NCBI GenBank assembly: GCA_017849615.1
Contig: JAFIGS010000016.1
Location: forward strand, 1-64,000
From: Pseudolabrys sp.
GTDB taxonomy: Bacteria > Pseudomonadota > Alphaproteobacteria > Rhizobiales > Xanthobacteraceae
DNA length: 64,000 bases
Direction of reading: 5' to 3'
In this document: positions 2,495 to 41,528 of the stretch, piece after piece
Position numbering within the stretch: position 1 is the stretch's first letter
Layout of the letters: each line of letters starts with the position of its first letter
Program-made: the position numbers and the translations under genes
Notes under the pieces: generated by a model
Database searches by the model: none
Seen by the model: only the letters and a program-made list of their open reading frames with translations
Told to the model about the DNA's origin: nothing

Positions 2495-3283
2495 TCAGCG
2501 CATCAGGTTGGAGGTGGCCGACAGCATCTGGTCGGCGGCGGAGATCACCTTGGCGTTCATTTCGTAGGCGCGCTGCGCGGCGATGAGATCGGAGATTTCG
2601 CTCACCGCTTCGACATTGGCCTGTTCGAGATTGCCCTGCTGCAGGTCGCCGAAGCCATTGAGCTGCGGCGTGCCGTTCTGCGGCGCGCCGGAGGCCGGCG
2701 TTTCCAGATACAGGTTGTCGCCGATGCCCTTGAGACCGGCCTTGTTGATGAACATCGACAGTTCGATCTGGCCGACCTGGTTCTGCGTGGTCTGGCCGGG
2801 CAGCGACACCAGCACCTGTCCCTGGGCGTTAATGGTTACGCCGGTGGCGTTCTGCGGGATCGTGATGCCCGGCTGGATCAGATTGCCGTTGGCGGTCACG
2901 ATGCGGCCCTGATGATCGAGTTCGAACGAGCCGTCGCGGGTGTAGGCGGTGGTGCCGTCCGGCATCGTGACCTTGAAGAAGCCTTCGCCGCGAATGGCGA
3001 CATCGTAGTCCTTGCCGGTCTGCGCCATCGTGCCCTGCGTCATGATGCGGGGCGTGCCGACCGTCTTGACGCCTGAGCCGAGTTCGATGCCGGCGGGCAG
3101 GATATTGCCCTGCGACGAGGTCTGCGCGCCGACGCGGCTGACGTGCTCGTAGAGCAGATCCTGGAATTCGGCGCGCTGCCGCTTGTAGGCGGTGGTGCGC
3201 ATGTTGGCGATATTGTTGGAGATGACCTGAACGTTGAGTTCCTGGGCCATCATGCCGGTCGCGGCGGTGTGCAGGGCGCGCAT
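2495..3283 (-). CDS. flgG: Flagellar distal rod protein FlgG
   Basis: Builds the distal rod, the driveshaft crossing the periplasm. The 262-residue protein has the N-terminal rod signature MRALHTAATGMMAQELNVQV with the SNNIAN motif, and the C-terminal helix QRAYEMNAKVISAADQML typical of FlgG. Length matches the family. A good ribosome site (GAGGAG) lies upstream of the ATG. It follows flgF with a 12-bp gap and is followed closely by flgA. Confidence 0.96.
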   Translation of the reverse strand: MRALHTAATGMMAQELNVQVISNNIANMRTTAYKRQRAEFQDLLYEHVSRVGAQTSSQGNILPAGIELGSGVKTVGTPRIMTQGTMAQTGKDYDVAIRGEGFFKVTMPDGTTAYTRDGSFELDHQGRIVTANGNLIQPGITIPQNATGVTINAQGQVLVSLPGQTTQNQVGQIELSMFINKAGLKGIGDNLYLETPASGAPQNGTPQLNGFGDLQQGNLEQANVEAVSEISDLIAAQRAYEMNAKVISAADQMLSATSNLMR

Positions 3284-3295
3284 GGTCTAATCTCC

Positions 3296-4063
3296 TCAGG
3301 CCGGAACTTCGGCGAGCTTGTCGATCGCGGTTTTGCGCATATCGCTCTGCTGCTGCAGCATGTTCGCGACCTGGGTATAGGTGCGCGTGATCTCGATCAT
3401 GCGGGTCATCTCGACGACCGAACGCACGTTCGACTTCTCGATCGAGCCCTGCTCGAACTTGGATTGCGTGTCCGCCACGACGTTGGCGCCGTTGCCCAGC
3501 GAGAAGGTGCCGAGGCCGGCCTTCTGCAGCAAAGCGGGATTGTCGATGCCGACCATGCGCAGCTTGCCGCGCTGGGCTTCCTGGCCCGGCGTGCCGGCGA
3601 CCGCGACGCTGACGGTGCCGTCACCGCTGATCTTGATCTGGATGTCGTTCGGCTGGAACTGTATCGGGCCGTTCTCGCCGAGCACGGGATGGCCTTCGGA
3701 GGTGACGAGCTGCCCGGTGTTGTTGATGAGGAAGCCGCCGTTGCGGGTGTAGCGCTCGCCGGCGGGCGTCTGCACGGCGAAGAAGCCCTTGCCGTTGATC
3801 GCGACGTCGGTCGGGTTGCCGGTGCGCTCCATCGTGCCCTGGCTGAAGTCGATCCAGGTGGCGCGGTCGCGCACGAACGAGACCTGACGGTCGTGGTTCG
3901 TCATCTTGTCGGACCGGGCGACCCGGCCGATGAATTCCTCGAACACCGTGCCATCGGCCTTGAAGCCGGAGGTGTTCACATTGGCGATGTTGTTCGCCAC
4001 GACGTCGAGCTCGCGCTTCAGCGCGACCTGACGCGATAGTCCGACCAGCAGGCTGTTCTGCAT
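3296..4063 (-). CDS. flgF: Flagellar proximal rod protein FlgF
   Basis: Proximal rod subunit, a shorter paralogue of FlgG. The 255-residue protein carries the rod-family N-terminus (LKRELDVVANNIANVNTSG) and a C-terminal helix ending in QQQSDMRKTAIDKL. The weaker C-terminal match and the presence of the adjacent true FlgG point to FlgF. It is the first gene of the minus-strand operon flgF-flgG-flgA-flgH. The start is supported by an upstream AGGGGAG ribosome site. It faces away from fliL across a 382-bp control region. Confidence 0.93.
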   Translation of the reverse strand: MQNSLLVGLSRQVALKRELDVVANNIANVNTSGFKADGTVFEEFIGRVARSDKMTNHDRQVSFVRDRATWIDFSQGTMERTGNPTDVAINGKGFFAVQTPAGERYTRNGGFLINNTGQLVTSEGHPVLGENGPIQFQPNDIQIKISGDGTVSVAVAGTPGQEAQRGKLRMVGIDNPALLQKAGLGTFSLGNGANVVADTQSKFEQGSIEKSNVRSVVEMTRMIEITRTYTQVANMLQQQSDMRKTAIDKLAEVPA

Positions 4064-4445
4064 CGGTCATCTCCCCTTGATCCCGCCGGCGCCTGCCCTC
4101 CCGAGGCCGGTGCCGCCGTGTGGTGAAAGACTGGCTCTCCCAAGCCGGCCTCTCGGGGAGAAAGGATTGCAGGCGCCGTGCCAAGTGCAAAAATCCAGGT
4201 ATTTCAGTAGTTTAAGGAATTATCAGTCATACATCGCAAGGCAAAAAACACCATAACGGCCGATATGACCCGGCAATTCTTGCCGCTTCGGGAACCCGGG
4301 AAAGGAACTGTTAACCATACCGCCCCTAACGTGGCGCATCTGCCACGTACATGGCGGTCAGGGGGCGGCTTGCGGGCGACGAGACGGCGCGCCGGCCGGC
4401 GCGGCGCGCATTGCTCGAAAATTTGTTGGGGAACAGGGGTCGTTG
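4064..4445. promoter_or_regulatory. Divergent control region flgF / fliL
   Basis: AT-richer than its surroundings. It holds an inverted repeat CGGCAA-TTC-TTGCCG (about 4271-4285), a second inverted repeat GTGGC-GCATCT-GCCAC (about 4331-4346), and the CtrA-type half-site listed separately. Promoters for both flagellar operons should lie here, but no clear sigma54 or sigma70 hexamers were found. Confidence 0.5.
4311..4318 (+). promoter_or_regulatory. CtrA-type half-site TTAACCAT
   Basis: The exact 8-mer TTAACCAT, known as a CtrA-associated half-site in Caulobacter, occurs 127 bp before the fliL start. The same extended form CTGTTAACCATA precedes flgB (13410-13417). Regulation by CtrA is inferred. 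Confidence 0.45.
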
Positions 4446-4955
4446 ATGGCCAAGGCGAAGTCTGAAGCGGAACCGGAAGTCGAGGCCGAAGGCGAACAGG
4501 CTCCCAAGAAGAGCAGGCTGCCGTCCAGGAAGGTGATGATCATTGCCGCGGTGGCGCTGCTGGTCGTCGGTGGCGGCGGTTTTGGCGCCATGAAGATGAT
4601 GGGCGGCAAGGACAAGCACGAAGAGCCCAAGAAGGAAGTGGTCAAGCCCGCGACCTTCGTCGATCTGCCGGATGTGCTGGTCAACCTCGCCAATTCGGGC
4701 GGCGATCGCACCCAGTATCTCAAGGTGAAGGTCGTGCTGGAAATTCCGGATCCCGAACTGGTTCCGAAGATCCAGCCGCTGATGCCGCGGGTGATGGACG
4801 CCTTCCAGACCTATCTGCGCGAATTGCGGCCGACCGATCTCGACGGCTCGGCGGGCCTCTACCGTCTCAAGGAAGAGCTGACGCGCCGCGTCAATGTCGC
4901 GGTCGCTCCCAACAAGGTGACCGCGGTTCTGTTCAAGGAAATCGTCGTCCAGTAG
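4446..4955 (+). CDS. fliL: Flagellar basal-body protein FliL
   Basis: Inner-membrane protein that sits around the stator units and supports torque. It is 169 residues from the ATG at 4446; an in-frame TTG three bases upstream is less likely. A charged cytoplasmic N-terminus (residues 1-30) precedes a single membrane helix (VMIIAAVALLVVGGGGFGAM) and a periplasmic FliL domain containing the family-typical FVDLPDVLVNL and QYLKVKVVLE, ending with VTAVLFKEIVVQ. It heads the operon fliL-fliM-DUF6468-motE-like. Confidence 0.94.
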   Translation: MAKAKSEAEPEVEAEGEQAPKKSRLPSRKVMIIAAVALLVVGGGGFGAMKMMGGKDKHEEPKKEVVKPATFVDLPDVLVNLANSGGDRTQYLKVKVVLEIPDPELVPKIQPLMPRVMDAFQTYLRELRPTDLDGSAGLYRLKEELTRRVNVAVAPNKVTAVLFKEIVVQ

Positions 4956-5008
4956 CGCCGGGGCGCAGGGACGAACGCACGACGAAATAACCGGACGCAA
5001 AGACGAGC

Positions 5009-6205
5009 ATGGCGGGCAAGGACCAGATCGACCAGGAAGCGCTGGCGGCGGAGTGGGGCGTTGCGCTCGAAGCCGAGGGCGGCGGCGCGGCCGCGGCGGC
5101 GGCGCCGGCGAGCAGCGTCGATCAGGCCGCCGCGCAATGGGCGGCGATGGTCGACGAAACCGCTTCCTTCCAGCCCAGCAGCAAGGGCGGCGCCGAGCGC
5201 ATCCTCAATCAGGAGGAAATCGACAATCTGCTCGGCTTCAGCCTGGCGGATGTGACGCTCAACGACAATTCCGGCATCCGCTCCATCATCGACTCGGCGA
5301 TGGTCTCTTACGAGCGCCTGCCGATGCTCGAAATCGTTTTCGACCGCCTGGTGCGGCTGATGACGACCAGTTTGCGCAATTTCACCTCGGACAACGTCGA
5401 AGTTTCGCTCGACCGCATCACCTCGGTGCGTTTCGGCGACTATCTCAACTCGATCCCGCTGCCGGCCATTCTCGCCGTGTTCAAGGCCGAGGAATGGGAC
5501 AATTTCGGCCTCGCCACCGTCAATTCGAGCCTCATCTATTCGATGATCGACGTGCTGCTCGGCGGCCGCCGCGGCCAGAGCTCGGTGCGCGTCGAAGGCC
5601 GGCCCTATACGACGATCGAAACGAGCCTCGTCAAGCGCATGATCGAGGTCGTTCTCGCCGATGCCGAGCTCGCCTTCAAGCCGCTCTCGCCGGTGAAATT
5701 CAATATCGATCGGCTCGAGACCAATCCGCGCTTCGCCGCGATCTCGCGCCCGGCCAATGCCGCGATCCTGGTGCGCCTGCGCATCGACATGGAAGACCGC
5801 GGCGGCAACATCGAGCTGCTGCTGCCCTATGCGACCATCGAACCGATCCGCGCCACGCTTCTCCAGATGTTCATGGGCGAGAAGTTCGGTCGCGACCAGA
5901 TCTGGGAAGGCCATCTGGCGACCGAGATCGGCCAGGCCGCCATCGGCGTCGATGCCGTGCTCTATGAAGAGAATTTGCCGTTGCGCAAGATGATGCAGCT
6001 CAATGTCGGCGACACGCTGATGCTCGAACTCAAGCCCGACGCGCTGGTCAAATTGCGCTGTGGCGACATTACCTTGACCGAAGGGCGCATGGGCAAGGTC
6101 GGCGATCGCATCGCCGTGCGGGTCACCAAAAATCTGCGCAAGCCGCGCACCACCTTCGCGATGTTCGAGAAAGCGGACGAGAAAATCCGCATGGAGACGC
6201 AGTGA
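5009..6205 (+). CDS. fliM: Flagellar motor switch protein FliM
   Basis: C-ring component that binds CheY-P and controls rotation sense. The 398-residue protein has an alphaproteobacterial Ala/Gly-rich N-terminal linker, then the FliM core beginning at LNQEEIDNLLGFSLAD (about residue 67). The middle domain includes VFKAEEWDNFGLATVNSSLIYSMID, and a C-terminal SPOA domain includes LNVGDTLMLELKPDALVKLRCGD. Stop and next start overlap as TGATG, indicating translational coupling with the downstream gene. Confidence 0.95.
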   Translation: MAGKDQIDQEALAAEWGVALEAEGGGAAAAAAPASSVDQAAAQWAAMVDETASFQPSSKGGAERILNQEEIDNLLGFSLADVTLNDNSGIRSIIDSAMVSYERLPMLEIVFDRLVRLMTTSLRNFTSDNVEVSLDRITSVRFGDYLNSIPLPAILAVFKAEEWDNFGLATVNSSLIYSMIDVLLGGRRGQSSVRVEGRPYTTIETSLVKRMIEVVLADAELAFKPLSPVKFNIDRLETNPRFAAISRPANAAILVRLRIDMEDRGGNIELLLPYATIEPIRATLLQMFMGEKFGRDQIWEGHLATEIGQAAIGVDAVLYEENLPLRKMMQLNVGDTLMLELKPDALVKLRCGDITLTEGRMGKVGDRIAVRVTKNLRKPRTTFAMFEKADEKIRMETQ

Positions 6206-6657
6206 TGTTCCAATACGGCTATCTCATCGAAAGCCTGGTATCCGTCCTGCTGCTGATGACGATTCTCTACTGCGTGCGGCTCAACAAGCAGATCCGCCTG
6301 CTCAAGGCCGACGAGCAATCGCTGCGCGCAACCATTGCTGAGCTGATTACCGCCACAGAGATCGCCGAGCGCGCCATTGGCGGCCTCAAGGCGACCATGC
6401 GCGAAGGCGAACAGACGCTCGGCGAGCGCATCAAGCGCACCGAGGCGCTTGCGGCCGATCTCGGCCAGCAACTGAACGCCGGCGAGCAACTCCTGACGCG
6501 GCTGGTGCGCATCACCGAGGCCGGCCGCCCCGACGCGACGCCGGCGGCGCCGGCCGTGCCGCGCGCGCAGGCGCTCGCCGCCGCGGCGCAGGCCTTGGCC
6601 GAGCGACAGATGGCGCGGCTCAAGATGGCCGGCGAAGGCAACGGGCTGGCGGCATGA
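6205..6657 (+). CDS. DUF6468 flagellar-cluster protein
   Basis: A 150-residue protein with one N-terminal membrane helix (YLIESLVSVLLLMTILYCVRL) followed by a long amphipathic, probably coiled-coil region (residues 25-105) and an Ala-rich tail. I assign it to the DUF6468 family, found between fliM and motE-like genes in Rhizobiales; its function is unknown. ATG at 6205 overlaps the fliM stop, and its own stop overlaps the next start as ATGA, so it is tightly built into the operon. A membrane anchor plus coiled coil suggests a structural or chaperone role in motor assembly (inference). Confidence 0.7.
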   Translation: MFQYGYLIESLVSVLLLMTILYCVRLNKQIRLLKADEQSLRATIAELITATEIAERAIGGLKATMREGEQTLGERIKRTEALAADLGQQLNAGEQLLTRLVRITEAGRPDATPAAPAVPRAQALAAAAQALAERQMARLKMAGEGNGLAA

Positions 6658-7628
6658 TCAGGCTGGGGCGCGAATTCCGTCTTATTCCGATCGTCCTTCT
6701 GGCGACGATCTGCCTGCTTGGGCTGAAGGTGACGGGGCTCGTGTTCGACGGCGGCTATACGTTGGGCGAGAAGCTCAGCCAGCGCGGCAAGCCGCCCGGC
6801 ATGACGGTGACCTCCGGCGAATCCGTGCCGGACTATCCACGCATCGTTGTGGCGGGCGAACCGGTGCAGCCCGAAGCGCCGGCGGCAAATTCGTCGAGCC
6901 CGTGGGCCAAGGAGATGTTCAATTTCGGCGGCGGCCGCGCGCGAGAGCCCGAGGTCACCGGGTCGGTCGCTGATCGCACCGCGACCTTGCCGAAGATCGG
7001 CGCGGCGTCGGCCGACAGTGACATCGTCACCGGTTCCTCCGGCGGCAGCAAGCCCGCGGCGCCGGCCGGCCAGGCCCCGTCCGAGCCGCTCAAGTCCACC
7101 GAACAACCTCCGGCGCCGACCAAACTCGAGGTCGGCGGCGATGCGCAGCCCATGGCGCCCGGCAGGATCAACTCGCCGGCCGAGCGCGCGCTGCTCGGCC
7201 GTTTGCAGGATCGCCGCGAGACGCTCGACAACCGCAACAAAGAACTCGACATGCGCGAGAGCCTGATCAAGGCGGCGGAGAAGCGGCTCGAAGCCAAGGT
7301 CGGCGAAATGAAAGACATCGAGACGCGTATCAAGACAGCGACCGATGCTCGCGACAAGGAGGAGAAGGAGCGCCTCAAGGGTCTCGTCGCCATGTACGAG
7401 AACATGAAGCCGAAGGATGCGGCGCGCATCTTCGACCGTCTCGACCTCAAAGTGCTTGTCGATCTGTCGACCGCGATGAAGCCGATCACCATGTCGGCGG
7501 TGCTTGCCCAGATGACGCCTGAGACCGCCGAGCGTCTGACGGTCGAACTGGCCACGCGGGCGAACGCCCCCAAGACGCAGGGCGCCGGCGAATTGCCGAA
7601 GATCGAAGGCCAGCCGGGCCGGCTGTGA
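6654..7628 (+). CDS. motE: MotE-like flagellar protein (MgtE N-like domain)
   Basis: MotE acts as a periplasmic chaperone for MotC in Sinorhizobium and relatives. This 324-residue protein has an uncleaved N-terminal helix (LIPIVLLATICLLGLKVTGL), a Pro/Ala-rich linker (residues 40-175), a coiled coil (180-245), and a C-terminal MgtE_N-like module containing GLVAMYENMKPKDAARIFDRLD and MSAVLAQMTPETAERLT. Domain order matches the MotE/FliG-like family. It is coupled to the previous gene by ATGA. The exact role in this organism is inferred, so the symbol is provisional. Confidence 0.75.
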   Translation: MIRLGREFRLIPIVLLATICLLGLKVTGLVFDGGYTLGEKLSQRGKPPGMTVTSGESVPDYPRIVVAGEPVQPEAPAANSSSPWAKEMFNFGGGRAREPEVTGSVADRTATLPKIGAASADSDIVTGSSGGSKPAAPAGQAPSEPLKSTEQPPAPTKLEVGGDAQPMAPGRINSPAERALLGRLQDRRETLDNRNKELDMRESLIKAAEKRLEAKVGEMKDIETRIKTATDARDKEEKERLKGLVAMYENMKPKDAARIFDRLDLKVLVDLSTAMKPITMSAVLAQMTPETAERLTVELATRANAPKTQGAGELPKIEGQPGRL

Positions 7629-7678
7629 CGCCTTGTCCGGTGTCCCGGTGCCCTTTGGGGTGTGTTTTACCGCAACAG

Positions 7679-7693
7679 TTAATCCGTCGTTAA
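7679..7693 (+). promoter_or_regulatory. CtrA box TTAA-N7-TTAA
   Basis: A perfect CtrA consensus (TTAA TCCGTCG TTAA) lies 47 bp upstream of the ATG at 7740 and between it and the motE-like gene. Position and fit suggest that the large TPR/AMIN gene has its own CtrA-controlled promoter. CtrA binding itself is inferred. Confidence 0.7.
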
Positions 7694-7739
7694 ACGCGGG
7701 TCCGTAAGGTCTTTCGGACACATTTGCGCGAAAGATCGT

Positions 7740-10700: not shown

Positions 10701-11393
10701 ACCCGGCTGGCGACCATCTATCTGATGAACCGCAAGCCCGACCACGCGCTCGCCACGTTGCAGCGGACGCGGTCATCGGAGTTGTCGAACGAATTGCGCG
10801 ACCAGCGCCTGCTGCTCGAGGCGCGAGCGCTGTCGGATGTCGGCCGTAATGACGTCGCGCTCGAGGTGATCGCCAATCTCAAAGGACGCGAGGCGCTCCG
10901 CCTGCGTGCCGATGTTGAATGGGCGGCCAAACACTGGCGTGTCGCGGCCGAACAGATCGAACTGATGCTCGGCGAGCGCTGGAAGGACTTCCGGCCGCTC
11001 AGCGATTCCGAGCGCATGGACGTGTTGCGCGCCGCCATCGCCTACACCTTGAGCGACGAGGGCATCGGCCTGTCGCGGCTGCGCGAGAAATACGCGGCCA
11101 AGATGGCCGGCACGCCGGACAGCCGCGCCTTCGATGTCGTGGGCGCGCCGATCGGTTCCGACTCCGCCGAATTTCAGTCGGTGGCGCGCCGCATCGCCAA
11201 TACCGACACGCTCGACGCTTTCCTGCGCGATCTCAACGAGCGCTACGGCGCCGAATCCTCGAAGCTGCCGCAGGCCCGCAATGGCGCCATGCCGCCTGCG
11301 AGCGAAGCACGAAATGACCGGCGCGCCGATCCGGCGCCGACCGGCTCGATCCGCCCGCGCGCGGCGACGTTCCGCGATCAGCCGAAGCGGTGA
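7740..11393 (+). CDS. Large periplasmic AMIN-like/TPR protein of the flagellar cluster
   Basis: An uncharacterised 1217-residue exported protein. A basic start and hydrophobic stretch (about residues 15-37, ending AAAAAEPV) look like a signal peptide. AMIN-like beta domains follow: one near 40-135 (GYGRLIFKFEDPVDARV), one near 165-250, and a third near 395-500 (DNMRISLPFAAPTPAAMFKRGDSLWLVFD), separated by a Pro/Ala/Lys-rich linker (250-395). Residues about 640-1150 are all-helical with TPR-like repeats. AMIN domains bind peptidoglycan and TPRs bind proteins, so an envelope scaffold for the motor, loosely like PflA/FimV proteins, is plausible but unproven. It has its own CtrA box and converges on fliP. 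Confidence 0.7.
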   Translation: MKSRPAGKSTAMARALNAARAALALVVIGAAGAAAAAEPVKGDVKAEAEAGYGRLIFKFEDPVDARVRVAGAILVIEFKEPVAVAVDRISGRMRDYVSAARVDPDGKAVRIALAGKFRINSIPAAERLFIDLLPEPWVGMLPGLPQDVVDELATRARAAELAARKKRTAEQAAALPAVRVKVVKLPTFMRYVFDLPQGNDVTPELSDGKFKLHFSKPAKWDLADVAATLPSTVSAVRPEAEFDSIGVIFTLNGAPETRSFREDKSFVVDIGLGADVAPQAAAMPALPSVAASGVQIAPPETVPASEAGPETAPPLKDMPVLKDAPAPKPDAKAEPAAAPTREAAKPDVKPAETKPVETKPAVAEVPRAPEPIKAQLALEAAPKPQAAAAKAESAMQAIASASSDNMRISLPFAAPTPAAMFKRGDSLWLVFDSNKPIDVSQLARDFGHIVRQADYQSGGRADGVVRLRLTRPMLASLEADDNGWVLKVGDTVATPPQALPMSRLINGSKRGIVVPLEQAGTLHYLTDPDLGTRMMAITALAPARGLMRPQNFVELRVLQSMHGVALEPLADDITADVTADQVTISRPGGLTLSAESLVQQQQMSPTLRDGSIDPETWEADRQAPFEARQSALIAGAAAAGEGTKRAARYDLARFYLANGMGAEAKAVLSVALDDKANGGDEVTGSILRALANVMMYRPEDALKDLSSPDIGDRKEAPIWRAMAQSRLGRWPEAHAAFKPLDKPIAALPTGLQRMALLDRIRTGIEVKDFDAAARLVNDLDTVGVPDEVTASVAVLRGRLAENLGRQDEALKEYRAAVMSSDRRAGAQARLREIELMSKSGAMPRNEMIHELEILTTVWRGDETETQGLQLLAHLYTGDGRYRDAFHVMRAALLAHPNADETRKIQDEAAKTFDALFLGGKGDGLPPIEALALFYDYRELTPVGRRGDEMIRRLAERLVAVDLLDQAADLLQHQVDHRLQGAARAIVATRLATIYLMNRKPDHALATLQRTRSSELSNELRDQRLLLEARALSDVGRNDVALEVIANLKGREALRLRADVEWAAKHWRVAAEQIELMLGERWKDFRPLSDSERMDVLRAAIAYTLSDEGIGLSRLREKYAAKMAGTPDSRAFDVVGAPIGSDSAEFQSVARRIANTDTLDAFLRDLNERYGAESSKLPQARNGAMPPASEARNDRRADPAPTGSIRPRAATFRDQPKR

Positions 11394-36304: not shown

Positions 36305-36694
36305 GCGCGGTCCCGTCAGTGGCGATCGCGCCTTTGACGTTCGGGACGCCGACCTGCGGCGTGATCGGCGGCGGCCGTCCCTGACGACGCGGCCGCATGC
36401 GTGCCTTGCGCCAGGCTTTTGCAATACCGTGTTTGGCATTCGCCGCCGATCGTCTTTCGATCATGCCTTCGTCAGGGTGTCGCGTCGGCACCCGCGCTCC
36501 ATCGTTCAGTCGGCAACGAAGACGAGGCATTTCAGCGCCCGTGCAACCGCAAGCATCGCTCAATGGTATTCAGTTAAATTCCTGAAGTGGCAGAGGAAAT
36601 ATTTTCGTAATTCAGCTTGTTGGAAATCTTTAAGCCACATTTATCAACTTGATCATGCGCGACGTCGCGCGGCCGGCGTTCCAAGAAACGCCCC
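36305..36694. other. Gap upstream of the polysaccharide locus
   Basis: The first 250 bp show no gene. The last 130 bp become AT-rich and contain the promoter candidate at 36617-36645. Short frames here are not protein-like. Confidence 0.45.
36617..36645 (+). promoter_or_regulatory. Candidate promoter of the polysaccharide operon
   Basis: TTGTTG (36617-36622), 17-bp spacer, TTTATC (36640-36645) in an AT-rich stretch 50 bp before the glycosyltransferase start. Confidence 0.35.
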
Positions 36695-38026
36695 ATGCAT
36701 GACCTCTTTCTTCTAAGCGTCCTGACGATAAGCCTGCTTATCAGCCTGTGTTCGCTCGACGACGCCTTTATCGATCTGCTTGCTCTGAGCATCGGCCAGG
36801 ACCCGCTTCGGGCCGGCGGACACGGGGACGCCGTGATTCCGCGCACCGCCGTCTTTATCGCGAACTGGGACGAGGAGGATGTCATCGGCCGCATGGTCGA
36901 AGGCAACCTGTCGCGGATAAGTGAGGCGAATGTCCTCATCTATCTCGGCGTCTATCCCAATGACGAGGGCACGCTTCGCGTGGCCAACGAGGTCGCGGCG
37001 AAGTATCCCGGCCGTGTCAGGGTGATCGTCAACAGTCTGAACGGTCCGACGTCGAAAGGGCAGATGCTCAACGAGATGTTCGAGCAGGTGTTCTCGCGCG
37101 ACGACGCGCCGGATCTCGTCGTGCTTCACGACAGCGAGGACGTCATCGACCCGCGCAGCTTCGCCGTCTACGCACGCTTTGCGTCCCGTTACGATTTCAT
37201 CCAGGTCCCGGTATTTTCGCTGCAGCGACGCCGTTCGGATTTTGTCGCCGCGACTTACATGGACGAGTTCGCCGAGCGCCACACCCGCGAGATGATCGTG
37301 CGCAACGCGCTAGGCGTCGCCATTCCTTCCGCGGGCGTCGGCACCTGCCTGTCGCGCCGGCTGGTGCAGCATTTTCTCAAGACGCACGGCCGCGTGCTGA
37401 TGCCGTCGACCGTGACCGAGGATTACGTCCTCGGCGTCGAAGCCAAGCGCGCCGGCTTCCGGCCTGTGTTCGCCGCGGTGCTGGCCGATGCCGACGAAGG
37501 CTACGACTACATCGCGACCCGCGAGTTCTTTCCGCAGAAGCTGTCGGCGTCGATCAAGCAGCGCACGCGCTGGATTTACGGTACGTCTTTCGAAGCGACG
37601 CACAAGCTCGGCTGGAGTGCCTCGGCCTGGGACATCTACTTCATGATCCGCGACCGCAAGGGCGCGATTGCCAACTTTTTGCCGGCGGCCTCACTGGTGC
37701 TGTGGGTGCTGGTGTTTCTCGACGTCATCGAGGTGGATTCGATGAGCGATGGCATGGCGAACCTGTTCGCCGTGTCGATGGTCTTCAATGTCGCGATGTC
37801 CGTCGTTCGCTATGTCACGCGCATCGTCTCAAGCTATCAGGTTTACGGCACCGTTGACTGGATCGGTATCGCGCTCCGCTGGCCTGTCGGCATCTTGATA
37901 ACTATGAGCGCAACTTATCGCGCCTGGAAGATTTACTTCGGTGAATCGGATTTCGCGACCAGACCCATCGTCTGGTCGAAAACCGTTCACGATCTGCCGG
38001 ACGATTTCTCGACGGCAACCCGATAG
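36695..38026 (+). CDS. NfrB-like family 2 glycosyltransferase
   Basis: A 443-residue processive-type membrane glycosyltransferase. N-terminal membrane helix (LFLLSVLTISLLISL), GT2 domain (about 45-310) and three to four C-terminal helices. Catalytic motifs: FIANWDEEDVIGRMVEGN, the DxD-like HDSEDVID, TEDYVLG and QRTRW (QxxRW). The segment LIYLGVYPNDEGT recalls E. coli NfrB, which makes the phage N4 receptor glycan. The c-di-GMP-binding MshEN domain of E. coli NfrB is absent. It heads an operon with a UDP-GlcNAc 2-epimerase and an HlyD-like protein. Confidence 0.8.
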   Translation: MHDLFLLSVLTISLLISLCSLDDAFIDLLALSIGQDPLRAGGHGDAVIPRTAVFIANWDEEDVIGRMVEGNLSRISEANVLIYLGVYPNDEGTLRVANEVAAKYPGRVRVIVNSLNGPTSKGQMLNEMFEQVFSRDDAPDLVVLHDSEDVIDPRSFAVYARFASRYDFIQVPVFSLQRRRSDFVAATYMDEFAERHTREMIVRNALGVAIPSAGVGTCLSRRLVQHFLKTHGRVLMPSTVTEDYVLGVEAKRAGFRPVFAAVLADADEGYDYIATREFFPQKLSASIKQRTRWIYGTSFEATHKLGWSASAWDIYFMIRDRKGAIANFLPAASLVLWVLVFLDVIEVDSMSDGMANLFAVSMVFNVAMSVVRYVTRIVSSYQVYGTVDWIGIALRWPVGILITMSATYRAWKIYFGESDFATRPIVWSKTVHDLPDDFSTATR

Positions 38027-38042
38027 CCCAGCGGTTCATCTC

Positions 38043-39206
38043 ATGCGTATCCTTCTCGTCTTCGGCACCCGGCCGGAGATCATCAAGCTCGGCCCTGTCT
38101 ATCGTGCGCTGAACGATGCCGGCGCCGACATCGACGTTTTCTGGTCGGGACAGCATGTCGAACTCGCCGACGGCCTGCTCGATTTGTTCGGCATGACGCC
38201 GACTTATCGCGGGGCCGAAGTCGTTCTGCAGATGGGACTGGCCGGCAAGCACGGCGTCATCATGCAGCAGATCGACAAGATACTGCGCGAAGTCCGCTAC
38301 GACTGGGTCGTCGTGCAGGGCGACACAACGACGGCGGCCGCCGCGGCGACCGCCGCCTTCACCAGCCGTGTGCCGGTGGCGCATGTCGAGGCGGGCCTGC
38401 GGACGGGAACGATCATGTCGCCGTGGCCTGAGGAGTTCAACCGCCGGGTAATCGGGCAGGCGGCGGCGCTGCATTTCGTGCCGACGGCACTGGCGCGCGA
38501 CAACCTGCTGAAGGAGGGCGTCGGTCCGCGCCGCATCGCGGTCGTCGGCAATACCGTGGTCGACGCCCTGCTTTACGCGCGGAACAGGATCGGGTCGGAC
38601 TATGTGCCGCGCGATCCGGAGGTCGCCACGCTGCCGGCCGACAAGAAACTCGTTCTGGTGACGCTCCACCGCCGGGAGAACATCGGCGAGCCGATGCGCG
38701 ACATCCTGCTGGCGCTGCGCGACCTCGGCGGCGACGGCGACAAGATCATCGCGCTGCCGGTGCATCTCAATCCCGGCGTCCGCGCCGACGTCAAAGCCGT
38801 GCTCGGCGACGCGCCGAACGTCCGCCTGCTGGCGCCGCTGTTCTATGGCGATTTCGTCCACCTCATGGGACGGGCCTGGACGGTGGTGACGGATTCAGGC
38901 GGCGTTCAGGAAGAGGCGCCCACATTCGGGCTGCAGATCCTGATCGCCCGCGAAAGCACGGAACGGCCGGAAGTCATCGAAGCGGGCTTCGGTACGCTGG
39001 TCGGCAGCGATCGCGGGAAGATCGTCGAAGGCGTGCGCCGCCTGACCGAAGGCAGCGCGCGTCAATTGTTGCCTGCTCACAATCCGTTCGGCGACGGCGC
39101 CGCTTCGCGCCGCATCGCCGAGTGCCTGACCGAAAGCAATGTAAAGCCAATCGAATGTTACACGTCCCTCCCAAGCAATTACAGGCTGTGGCAAGCGGGC
39201 CGCTGA
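38043..39206 (+). CDS. wecB: UDP-N-acetylglucosamine 2-epimerase (WecB-like, non-hydrolysing)
   Basis: Converts UDP-GlcNAc to UDP-ManNAc. The 387-residue protein from ATG 38043 has the family signatures LLVFGTRPEIIKLGPVYRAL, VVVQGDTTTA, VAHVEAGLRTG, the EEFNRRVIGQAAALHFVPT active-site region, and TDSGGVQEEAP. Seventeen bases separate it from the glycosyltransferase, and it overlaps the next gene, so one operon is likely. Its product is the expected donor for an NfrB-like enzyme. Confidence 0.92.
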   Translation: MRILLVFGTRPEIIKLGPVYRALNDAGADIDVFWSGQHVELADGLLDLFGMTPTYRGAEVVLQMGLAGKHGVIMQQIDKILREVRYDWVVVQGDTTTAAAAATAAFTSRVPVAHVEAGLRTGTIMSPWPEEFNRRVIGQAAALHFVPTALARDNLLKEGVGPRRIAVVGNTVVDALLYARNRIGSDYVPRDPEVATLPADKKLVLVTLHRRENIGEPMRDILLALRDLGGDGDKIIALPVHLNPGVRADVKAVLGDAPNVRLLAPLFYGDFVHLMGRAWTVVTDSGGVQEEAPTFGLQILIARESTERPEVIEAGFGTLVGSDRGKIVEGVRRLTEGSARQLLPAHNPFGDGAASRRIAECLTESNVKPIECYTSLPSNYRLWQAGR

Positions 39207-40294
39207 AAGTCAGTCGGCTGCGCCGGCGCAAGCTGCACAAGGTGCTGCTGACCGGTTTCGTCCTGATCGTCGGCGGTCTGATCGTGGCCGACGTCATCGG
39301 CGGCAGTACGCTGCTTTTCAGCGCCGAAGGCATCGTGACACGCGAGCGCGTGGCGATCTCTGCGCCTTATGAAAACACCCGTATACGCGAATTGTTCGTC
39401 CGCCCGGGCGACCGGGTCGAGGCGGGGCAGAAAATCGCCGCGGTCGAATCCGGCGCGGTGTCGCGTTCGGTTGCCGATCTGTCGGTCGAAAGGGCGAGGC
39501 TGCGCAGCAGGCTCGCGGAAATCGAGGCGCGCGAAGCGGCGGTGGACGAGCTGCTGCCGACGGCGGAAGCCGCGGTGAAGCAGTTCAAGTCCTATCTCGA
39601 TCGCGTCTCGGGCGCGAGCGCGGGCGGCTTCGTCAACGACAAGACCGTGACGGACATCGTCAGCGCGCACTTCGCGGCCGCCGAAAAGCTCGCTTCGCTG
39701 CAGGCCGAGAAAAAATCGCGGGCCAAGGAGCGCGAGCCCTATGTCGCGGCGCTCGCCGACGTCAGCGCATCCTACGACTCGCTGCAACAGTCCTACGGCA
39801 GCGGCACGCTGGCGACGCCGGTCGCCGGCTATGTCGGCACGCGCCTCGGCGCCGTCGGCGAAGTGCTGAGCGCGTCGGCGGCAACGGTTGCCGATATCTA
39901 TACCGGCGAAAGCTACGTGCTCGCCTACGTCCAGGATGGCTATACGCTCGGCGTCGAACCGGGCCAGCGCGTGAAGGTCGAGTTGCGGTCCCGCTCGACG
40001 CTGGGCGTGGTCGCGCAACTCCTGCCGGTGACCGCGGCGATGCCGCCGGAATTCCAGATGCCGGCGCGGCCGCGGCTGCGGGGCCAGTTGATGCGGGTGT
40101 CGATTCCGGACGCCGCCGACTTTCCCATCGGGGAACAGGTCAAGCTGTCGGTGTGCTACTTCGACACCTGCGAGAGCCTGATGGACACGATCCGGCCATC
40201 GAAAATCCTGCAGCGTGTTGCCAAGCGGGTCCGCGAACTTCTCCCGGCGGCATCCGGCAGAAACGTGCAGGCGCGGCCATCGGCCGCGCTGTAG
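39155..40294 (+). CDS. HlyD-like membrane-fusion/adaptor protein of the polysaccharide locus
   Basis: A 379-residue protein with a cytoplasmic basic N-terminus, one membrane helix (LLTGFVLIVGGLIVADVIGG), a biotinyl-lipoyl-like half (APYENTRIRELFVRPGDRVE), a coiled-coil hairpin (about 105-215) and a second beta half with ATPVAGYVGTRLGAVGEVLS. This is the layout of HlyD/Alg44-type periplasmic adaptors. The ATG at 39155 overlaps the epimerase; a GTG at 39122 is in frame but less likely. It may guide the nascent polymer across the periplasm (inference). Confidence 0.78.
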   Translation: MLHVPPKQLQAVASGPLKVSRLRRRKLHKVLLTGFVLIVGGLIVADVIGGSTLLFSAEGIVTRERVAISAPYENTRIRELFVRPGDRVEAGQKIAAVESGAVSRSVADLSVERARLRSRLAEIEAREAAVDELLPTAEAAVKQFKSYLDRVSGASAGGFVNDKTVTDIVSAHFAAAEKLASLQAEKKSRAKEREPYVAALADVSASYDSLQQSYGSGTLATPVAGYVGTRLGAVGEVLSASAATVADIYTGESYVLAYVQDGYTLGVEPGQRVKVELRSRSTLGVVAQLLPVTAAMPPEFQMPARPRLRGQLMRVSIPDAADFPIGEQVKLSVCYFDTCESLMDTIRPSKILQRVAKRVRELLPAASGRNVQARPSAAL

Positions 40295-41150: not shown

Positions 41151-41528
41151 TCAGTGCCCTCGATACGGCTTACAGACGCCATCCTGAATTGTGTAATTGG
41201 GCCTGCCGCACCGCGGGTCTCCGTAATCGAAATTGTAGCCGTAAGGGTGGCTCGGATCGGCATAGCGGGGGCGATGGCGTTCCCGGTAATAAACGCGCGG
41301 TCCCTCATCGTAGTAGCCGTATCGCGGCCCCTGATAGTGGCCGTATCGCGGCCCCTGATAGTAGCCGTACCGTGGCCCCTGATAGTAGCCGTACCGTGGC
41401 CCCTGCATGGGGACGCACCGATAGCCATTGTTATACCAGCCGCGGCCGCATCCATCGGCCGCCTGGCTCGAGGCCGGCACCGCGGCAAGCGCGGCCAGTC
41501 CCAGCATCCCAGCAAGCACTATCTTCAT
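41151..41528 (-). CDS. Secreted GCG_CRPN-type protein with tandem repeats
   Basis: A 125-residue secreted protein. Signal peptide ends SSQAAD; then the GCG prefix GCGRGWYNNGYRCVP, four copies of an eight-residue repeat (YYQGPRYG with one YHQ variant), an Arg/Tyr-rich segment, and a terminal cysteine pair (RCGRPN and GVCKPYRGH). Fits the 'GCG_CRPN prefix-to-repeats' class seen in Rhizobiales; function unknown. Repeat number is likely variable between strains. Confidence 0.75.
   Translation of the reverse strand: MKIVLAGMLGLAALAAVPASSQAADGCGRGWYNNGYRCVPMQGPRYGYYQGPRYGYYQGPRYGHYQGPRYGYYDEGPRVYYRERHRPRYADPSHPYGYNFDYGDPRCGRPNYTIQDGVCKPYRGH
41311..41404. repeat. 24-bp tandem repeat inside the GCG_CRPN gene
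   Basis: About four head-to-tail copies of a 24-bp unit encoding YYQGPRYG; copies differ at a few positions (TATCGCGG versus TACCGTGG), pointing to stepwise duplication. Confidence 0.85.

Follow-up and report, generated by a model that had tools for sequence, protein, structure and literature searches.

Three adjoining genes lie on the forward strand of the first 64,000 nucleotides of contig JAFIGS010000016.1 of Pseudolabrys sp. (GenBank assembly GCA_017849615.1; this whole stretch is called the window hereafter). They encode a membrane synthase of glycosyltransferase (GT) family 2 (GT2; 36695..38026), a WecB-type UDP-N-acetylglucosamine (UDP-GlcNAc) 2-epimerase (38043..39206) and a membrane fusion protein of the HlyD/EmrA type, the adaptor (39155..40294). 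We consider it probable that this trio is a compact cassette for making a homopolymer (or a simple copolymer) containing N-acetylmannosamine (ManNAc) and for exporting it through the adaptor and a TolC-type channel. The features established by computation are the protein families, the catalytic residues, the predicted folds, the linkage and shared descent of the three genes, an empty site in a congener and the presence of TolC homologues. If the proposal is true, an undescribed polymer of aminosugars is produced within a clade whose members are soil, root-associated and methylotrophic bacteria, and a TolC channel, rather than a dedicated barrel, can gate a self-secreted polysaccharide at the outer membrane.

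In the proposed mechanism, WecB would convert UDP-GlcNAc into UDP-ManNAc, and the membrane GT would polymerise the latter while moving the product through a channel formed by its own transmembrane part, in a BcsA-like manner. On the periplasmic side, the inner-membrane-anchored adaptor of the EmrA type would collect the chain, and its long alpha-hairpin would dock on an outer-membrane channel of the TolC type whose gene lies outside the cassette. The donor sugar, the polymer, the processivity, the contact between adaptor and synthase, the use of TolC and the surface location are what we infer from the computed features; the ManNAc polymer is supported by context. A preliminary description of this DNA had proposed a minimal ManNAc-polymer export system. 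Most of this idea stands, except for the word minimal: the cassette is probably incomplete because its design implies a TolC channel, which is seen beside the trio of one other locus (L053), in two plasmid records and elsewhere in the same genome.

Glycosyltransferase

The open reading frames (ORFs) confirm the three tightly packed genes that had been described, together with the overlap of wecB and adaptor (52 bp, the adaptor starting with the ATG at 39155), but the gap between the GT gene and wecB measures 16 bp instead of 17 bp. The GT (443 aa) passes the NCBIfam model NF011306 (PRK14716.1-4 glycosyl transferase family protein) over its full length (679.9 bits for a cut-off of 504, residues 1-443 covering model positions 1-442). 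It aligns with Escherichia coli NfrB along its length at 32% identity, and the three residues mutated in NfrB, D169, D267 and W330 (numbered as in PMC8669469), correspond to D146, D243 and W293. These residues belong to the motifs HDSED (residues 145-149; 37127..37141), TED (residues 241-243; 37415..37423) and QxxRW (residues 289-293; 37559..37573), and are invariant in the 35 rows of an alignment made of the window and of rows picked from the best 80 of at least 489 related loci. The NfrB-like active-site layout announced by the preliminary description is therefore present. Judged by its sequence, the GT is a member of the NfrB superfamily, no sign of an unrelated substrate class being found, but it belongs to a clade of its own. 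An identification as NfrB proper was rejected: the GT reaches 243.7 bits with NF008411, far from the cut-off of 1170, it has no MshEN domain and no NfrA was detected in the genome.

As had been noted, the GT is devoid of MshEN: the protein stops at 443 aa, GT2 domains are its only Pfam matches and there is no C-terminal MshEN domain binding cyclic di-GMP (c-di-GMP). Neither MshEN nor PilZ was matched in any of the three cassette proteins (Pfam, E 0.1). As far as sequences tell, this GT is not unique in this respect among NfrB-like loci, the NfrB C-terminal region being matched in only 11 of the 84 loci of the set (by a single-sequence search, which under-calls). MshEN was reported in 1,705 of 1,841 NfrB homologues, mostly from E. 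coli (PMC8669469).

The AlphaFold2 model of the GT has a mean predicted local distance difference test score (pLDDT) of 89.4 and a predicted template modelling score (pTM) of 0.89. In the structure comparison that the preliminary description had suggested, the best match of this model is the cellulose synthase BcsA (E 2.9e-13, template modelling score (TM) by query length 0.64-0.65), followed by a mannosyltransferase and then by hyaluronan synthases; no solved structure was matched by the GT sequence profile at E 0.01. Since hyaluronan synthases alternate two donors, their place among the best matches favours another product for the same machine: the GT could alternate UDP-ManNAc and UDP-GlcNAc and make a ManNAc-GlcNAc copolymer, or unlinked enzymes could modify the polymer later. 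Both the substrate and the product of the epimerase would be at hand for one GT, and genes of the deacetylase-like family DUF2334 lie near the GTs of adjacent clades and near the trio in one locus. However, no DUF2334 match was found in this genome, although relatives have one, and we regard this alternative as unlikely.

Predicted UDP-ManNAc Supply

The epimerase of the cassette (387 aa; 38043..39206) passes TIGR00236 with 370.7 bits (cut-off 210.15). Among 22 solved structures, the closest is 1vgv (315.9 bits; 316 bits for 1vgv/1f6d), whereas the WbpI type scores 142 bits; we take 1vgv and 1f6d to be the E. coli WecB enzyme, and WbpI to be the name of the enzyme of 8sxv. The genome, listed as 99.99% complete, has only one other PF02350 gene besides this wecB. 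It adjoins a nucleotide-sugar dehydrogenase gene and its product is closest to UDP-2,3-diacetamido-2,3-dideoxyglucuronic acid 2-epimerase (8sxv; 375 bits compared to 144 for E. coli WecB). No WecC-type dehydrogenase was found over cut-off in the genome (best score 173.6 for a cut-off of 459 bits), and a use of UDP-ManNAc for N-acetylmannosaminuronic acid was therefore judged unlikely. Since the other epimerase is closer to WbpI and no WecC-type dehydrogenase exceeds the cut-off, the cassette is likely the sole maker and user of UDP-ManNAc in this genome, UDP-ManNAc being the predicted product of its WecB.

Adaptor and Probable Outer-Membrane Exit

The third protein (379 aa; 39155..40294) stays under the cut-offs of the Pfam HlyD models, whereas its counterpart in L048 scores above two of these cut-offs. 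The AlphaFold2 model of the window protein (pLDDT 77, pTM 0.51) comprises a low-confidence N-terminal helix, strands of lipoyl-like type, a hairpin with arms of 57 and 53 residues, and additional beta strands. The helix (residues 20-49; 39212..39301) is predicted to span the membrane from its sequence; the hairpin corresponds to residues 100-156 and 162-214 (39452..39796), and A154 and G158 are invariant in the region of its turn (14-row alignment). Foldseek gives EmrA as the best structure match (8zar, from the EmrAB-TolC pump; E 7.4e-15) and MacA as the next one. In the EmrA and MacA pumps, the alpha-hairpin is the part that docks on TolC. The HlyD-type identity of the adaptor is thus weak by sequence but clear by predicted fold. 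The preliminary description had called it HlyD/Alg44-like, and only the first half of this name is retained: a PilZ domain is a feature of the Alg44 adaptor of the Alg8/Alg44 alginate system, no PilZ was found by the Pfam scan and the fold is closest to EmrA.

As announced, no NfrA was detected: the genome gave no NfrA_C match, while the E. coli positive control was detected. Seven OEP-domain matches correspond to four TolC-type genes, so that synthase, adaptor and TolC-type channels co-occur in this genome. In L053, a TolC-family gene (TIGR01844, 309.7 bits) lies upstream of the trio, and its best match among the OEP stretches of the Pseudolabrys genome is a gene at G000:C32 (44% identity). 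Four ORFs around the latter were scanned: they encode PCMT, valyl-tRNA synthetase and two proteins without Pfam match, and no pump was seen among them. This neighbourhood presumably resembles that of the housekeeping TolC in other alphaproteobacteria. Because of these pump-free neighbours and of this resemblance, the gene at G000:C32 may be read as the housekeeping TolC.

Several observations weigh against the proposed cassette. (i) The second PF02350 epimerase also passes TIGR00236 (280 bits for a cut-off of 210). (ii) The adaptor is under every family cut-off, its best model (33.5 bits) and other matches being generic pump-adaptor models only, and over the whole fold it matches modestly (TM about 0.5). 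(iii) The window cassette carries no TolC gene and, among the 17 complete loci described below, TolC lies beside the trio in just one (neighbours being scanned with one query and, for single proteins, by Pfam). (iv) Even for the E. coli N4 glycan receptor (NGR), the ManNAc content was postulated from genetics (PMC8669472).

The lack of any outer-membrane gene in the window cassette would also suit an arrangement in which GT and WecB make the polymer while the adaptor uses another channel or merely stabilises the synthase in a BcsB-like manner, the polymer staying in the periplasm or leaving by another barrel. NfrB-like GTs do have other neighbours elsewhere: an NfrA_C protein in L115, found by Pfam and missed by the single-sequence search with E. 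coli NfrA, which under-calls, and a weak BcsB match in L078 (18 bits, cut-off 21). However, the long hairpin and EmrA-like fold predicted for the adaptor, as well as the TolC-type genes beside the L053 trio and in two of ten plasmid records described below (both Methylocystis iwaonis), argue against this arrangement, which we hold to be decidedly unlikely.

The generic nature of the sequence matches could also mean that the HlyD-like protein serves a pump, either for efflux or for type I secretion, and is a mere neighbour of the GT-wecB pair. In three loci, pump genes are indeed located a few kb from the trio: L050 (ABC and HlyD), L049 (AcrB-family) and L047 (ABC exporter-type). However, those of L050 and L049 carry their own adaptor-like genes, and the inspection of neighbours in 12 + 3 trio loci (mostly by eye) showed no recurrent pump. 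Furthermore, the adaptor shares the descent of the GT, and its homologues lie beside a GT2 in all ten plasmid records; a chance neighbourhood therefore seems very improbable. Export of a ManNAc-containing polymer through adaptor and TolC remains our preferred reading of the locus.

Linkage, Distribution and Descent

A scan of genome contigs was performed and the best 80 of at least 489 related GT loci were kept and joined with further genome loci. A close GT clade includes 17 complete loci (the window, L033, L035, L036, L043-L053, L055 and L066), and GT, wecB and adaptor are present in all 17. The neighbourhood comparison that had been suggested as a check thus reveals that the three genes are conserved together. 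They follow each other in the order GT-wecB-adaptor, with no intervening gene, in 14 of these loci. Linkage is kept in the exceptions: the order is adaptor-GT-wecB in L052, about 2.1 kb separate GT and wecB in L050, and the GT of L051 lies about 5 kb from wecB-adaptor on the opposite strand. This count does not include L034 and L054, which are one Rhodomicrobium contig (letter-for-letter identical) ending inside wecB, so that the adaptor is not visible, nor L057, a disrupted copy with a partial GT, wecB in pieces and no adaptor match. The disrupted cassette of L057 comes from Bradyrhizobium sp. MOS002. Two different trio cassettes with different gene orders (L045 and L052) were found in a single strain, Bradyrhizobium diazoefficiens SZCCT0423. 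In L050, an ORF upstream of GT (7200-7730) and another upstream of wecB (10968-11291) have identical starts as printed, which suggests a duplicated segment.

Among the more distant GT loci retained in the best 80 of at least 489, wecB is present in 52 of 65 (some of them shortened by contig ends) and the adaptor in none of 65, even at E 0.1 with an unfiltered 14-row profile. The distribution of the GT family is patchy: NF011306-family GTs over cut-off are found in two of 60 relatives (36 of the same genus), namely the Pseudolabrys genome itself and its congener G004, in four of 397 genomes of the order (own included) and in one of 385 of the class (own).

The members of the trio form one clade in each of the three trees, which were built by quick maximum likelihood with support from the SH-like approximate likelihood-ratio test (SH-aLRT) only, several outside rows being long-branched: (i) in the GT tree, with an SH-aLRT of 99 and including L054, which is truncated ahead of the adaptor (52 rows; L034, L057, L080 and L090 omitted, distant loci thinned), (ii) in the WecB tree, with 96 (trees of 43 and 27 rows, distant loci thinned), and (iii) in the adaptor tree, with 98 (17 trio rows and seven of the ten plasmid adaptors). 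Three groups are common to all of them: the window with G004, the adjoining four Bradyrhizobium-type rows and four Hyphomicrobium-type rows. The deeper forks are discordant or weakly supported. Since each tree gives a single trio clade, the trio was apparently put together once. One trio (L055) occurs in a metagenome-assembled genome (MAG) labelled Terriglobia (Acidobacteriota) and is nested inside the alphaproteobacterial clade, a placement that reflects either a transfer or a binning error.

The nearest outsider in both the GT and WecB trees is L056, from a Hyphomicrobiaceae MAG, whose neighbourhood includes wecB, DUF2334, GH113 and BcsS genes. In the GT tree, it is followed mostly by Bdellovibrionota rows with DUF2334 genes nearby, and E. 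coli NfrB is placed on the other side. In the stretch 6145-14111 of L056, which comprises these genes, the NfrB-like GT carries an extension of about 490 residues that has no clear Pfam family. In L060 (7983-14121), one of the rows with DUF2334 that come next, and in similar loci, the GT is directly followed by a DUF2334 gene, a gene encoding a 571-aa protein of unknown kind and a GH113 gene; such loci could possibly be a second cluster for a ManNAc-type polymer. L056 and L060 are the loci in which GH113 (mannanase-family) genes were seen: a search with the L056 protein gave no other one among the loci, and that of L060 was caught by Pfam.

In the congener G004, the trio lies between the same neighbouring genes as in the window. 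It is absent from the congener G010, where the matches to the flanking PQ-loop and thioesterase genes end 22 bp apart. The congener G017 is consistent with the same absence: on its short contig, about 1.3 kb separate the ends of the matches to fumarase and thioesterase. In the other congener loci that were fetched, both flanks are not visible. The trio is thus a discrete unit, and it recurs as such in soil and water bacteria.

Adaptor Cassettes on Plasmids

No exact trio was found among 72,556 plasmid records: 27 match the query, all with less than 60% identity (about 33-35% for the best). Ten records (L152-L161), which represent few species and are not independent, carry adaptor homologues (24-31% identity), always beside a GT2 of another class. 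PgaC is the closest model for the three of these GT2s that were tested, under its cut-off, and the remaining ones are homologous to the GT2 of L152 (31-79% identity). In none of the ten records does wecB or an NfrB-type GT lie within about 6 kb of the adaptor. Because the plasmid adaptors are accompanied by PgaC-like GT2s and no wecB, wecB is associated with the NfrB-type GT rather than with the adaptor, as donor supply would predict. A TolC-type gene is located downstream of the cassette in two of the ten records, those of M. iwaonis mentioned above. It seems about an even chance that an EmrA-like module common to PgaC-like and NfrB-like GT2s threads self-translocated sugar polymers into a housekeeping TolC, which would then act as an outlet for polysaccharides in Hyphomicrobiales, in the absence of the c-di-GMP domain of the E. 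coli system; NfrB-type ManNAc polymers would thereby have one more way out. The comparison of cassettes with and without wecB makes the donor of NfrB-type synthases directly testable, and the size of three genes makes laboratory reconstruction easy.

The plasmid cassettes (about 3200-7100 of each locus) include, in nine of ten records according to tblastn, a gene for a TackOD1-type protein upstream of the PgaC-like GT2 and HlyD-like adaptor genes. Response-regulator, Hpt and diguanylate cyclase genes are located near that of L155.

Comparison with Known Systems

The cassette resembles the NfrB-NfrA-WecB system of E. coli, which makes the NGR, a phage receptor (PMC8669472), by its homologous GT2 core (32% identity), by the conservation of the three mutated residues and by WecB as donor former. 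It differs from it by the lack of MshEN and NfrA, by its EmrA-type adaptor, by the presence of wecB inside the cassette and by a separate NCBIfam model. In species that have no other homologue of WecB, wecB also adjoins nfrB (PMC8669469). The BgsBA system for mixed-linkage beta-glucan of Sinorhizobium and Rhizobium, which belong to the same bacterial order, likewise associates a GT2 with a protein containing an HlyD-like domain (PMC9495663). This likeness is by description only; BgsA makes a glucan and is activated by c-di-GMP, and the available text of this source does not mention wecB. The XcsA-XcsB-TolC model of cyanobacterial cellulose export has the same proposed architecture of GT2, HlyD-like adaptor and TolC, but it concerns cellulose, its synthase carries PilZ, its genes are scattered in T. 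vulcanus and, according to the review that presents it, experimental validation is lacking (PMC12430437).

A clostridial operon encoding GT2, GH113, WecB and deacetylase has been proposed to make a partially deacetylated ManNAc-rich polymer (PMC7710045). It shares with our loci the association of a GT2 with WecB, and GH113 and deacetylase-like genes lie beside the outside relatives L056 and L060. It differs by its BcsA/B-type pair, and no adaptor is mentioned in the available text of this source, whereas the window cassette has neither GH113 nor deacetylase. The GH113 enzymes of known activity act on mannans, one large clade being unassigned (PMC9032380); for the outside clades, this activity agrees with a product of manno configuration, but it says nothing direct on the trio clade. 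The plasmid cassettes share with the trio a homologous adaptor directly beside a GT2, but their GT2s are nearest to PgaC (below cut-off in the three tested), wecB is absent and a TackOD1-type gene is generally found upstream. Each part of the trio is known, but no earlier description of the three genes combined into a conserved unit was found among titles and abstract openings of the open-licence literature.

Other Features of the Region

The G+C content is lower in the GT region (36305-38026; 60.7% for the GT gene and 59.0% for the stretch ahead of it) than in the window (65.0%), unlike that of wecB (66.1%) and of the adaptor gene (66.7%). Between the cassette and a gene that we take by eye to be recA, the reverse strand (41151-41528) encodes a small protein with repeated GPRYGYYQ-like units, which is conserved in G004.

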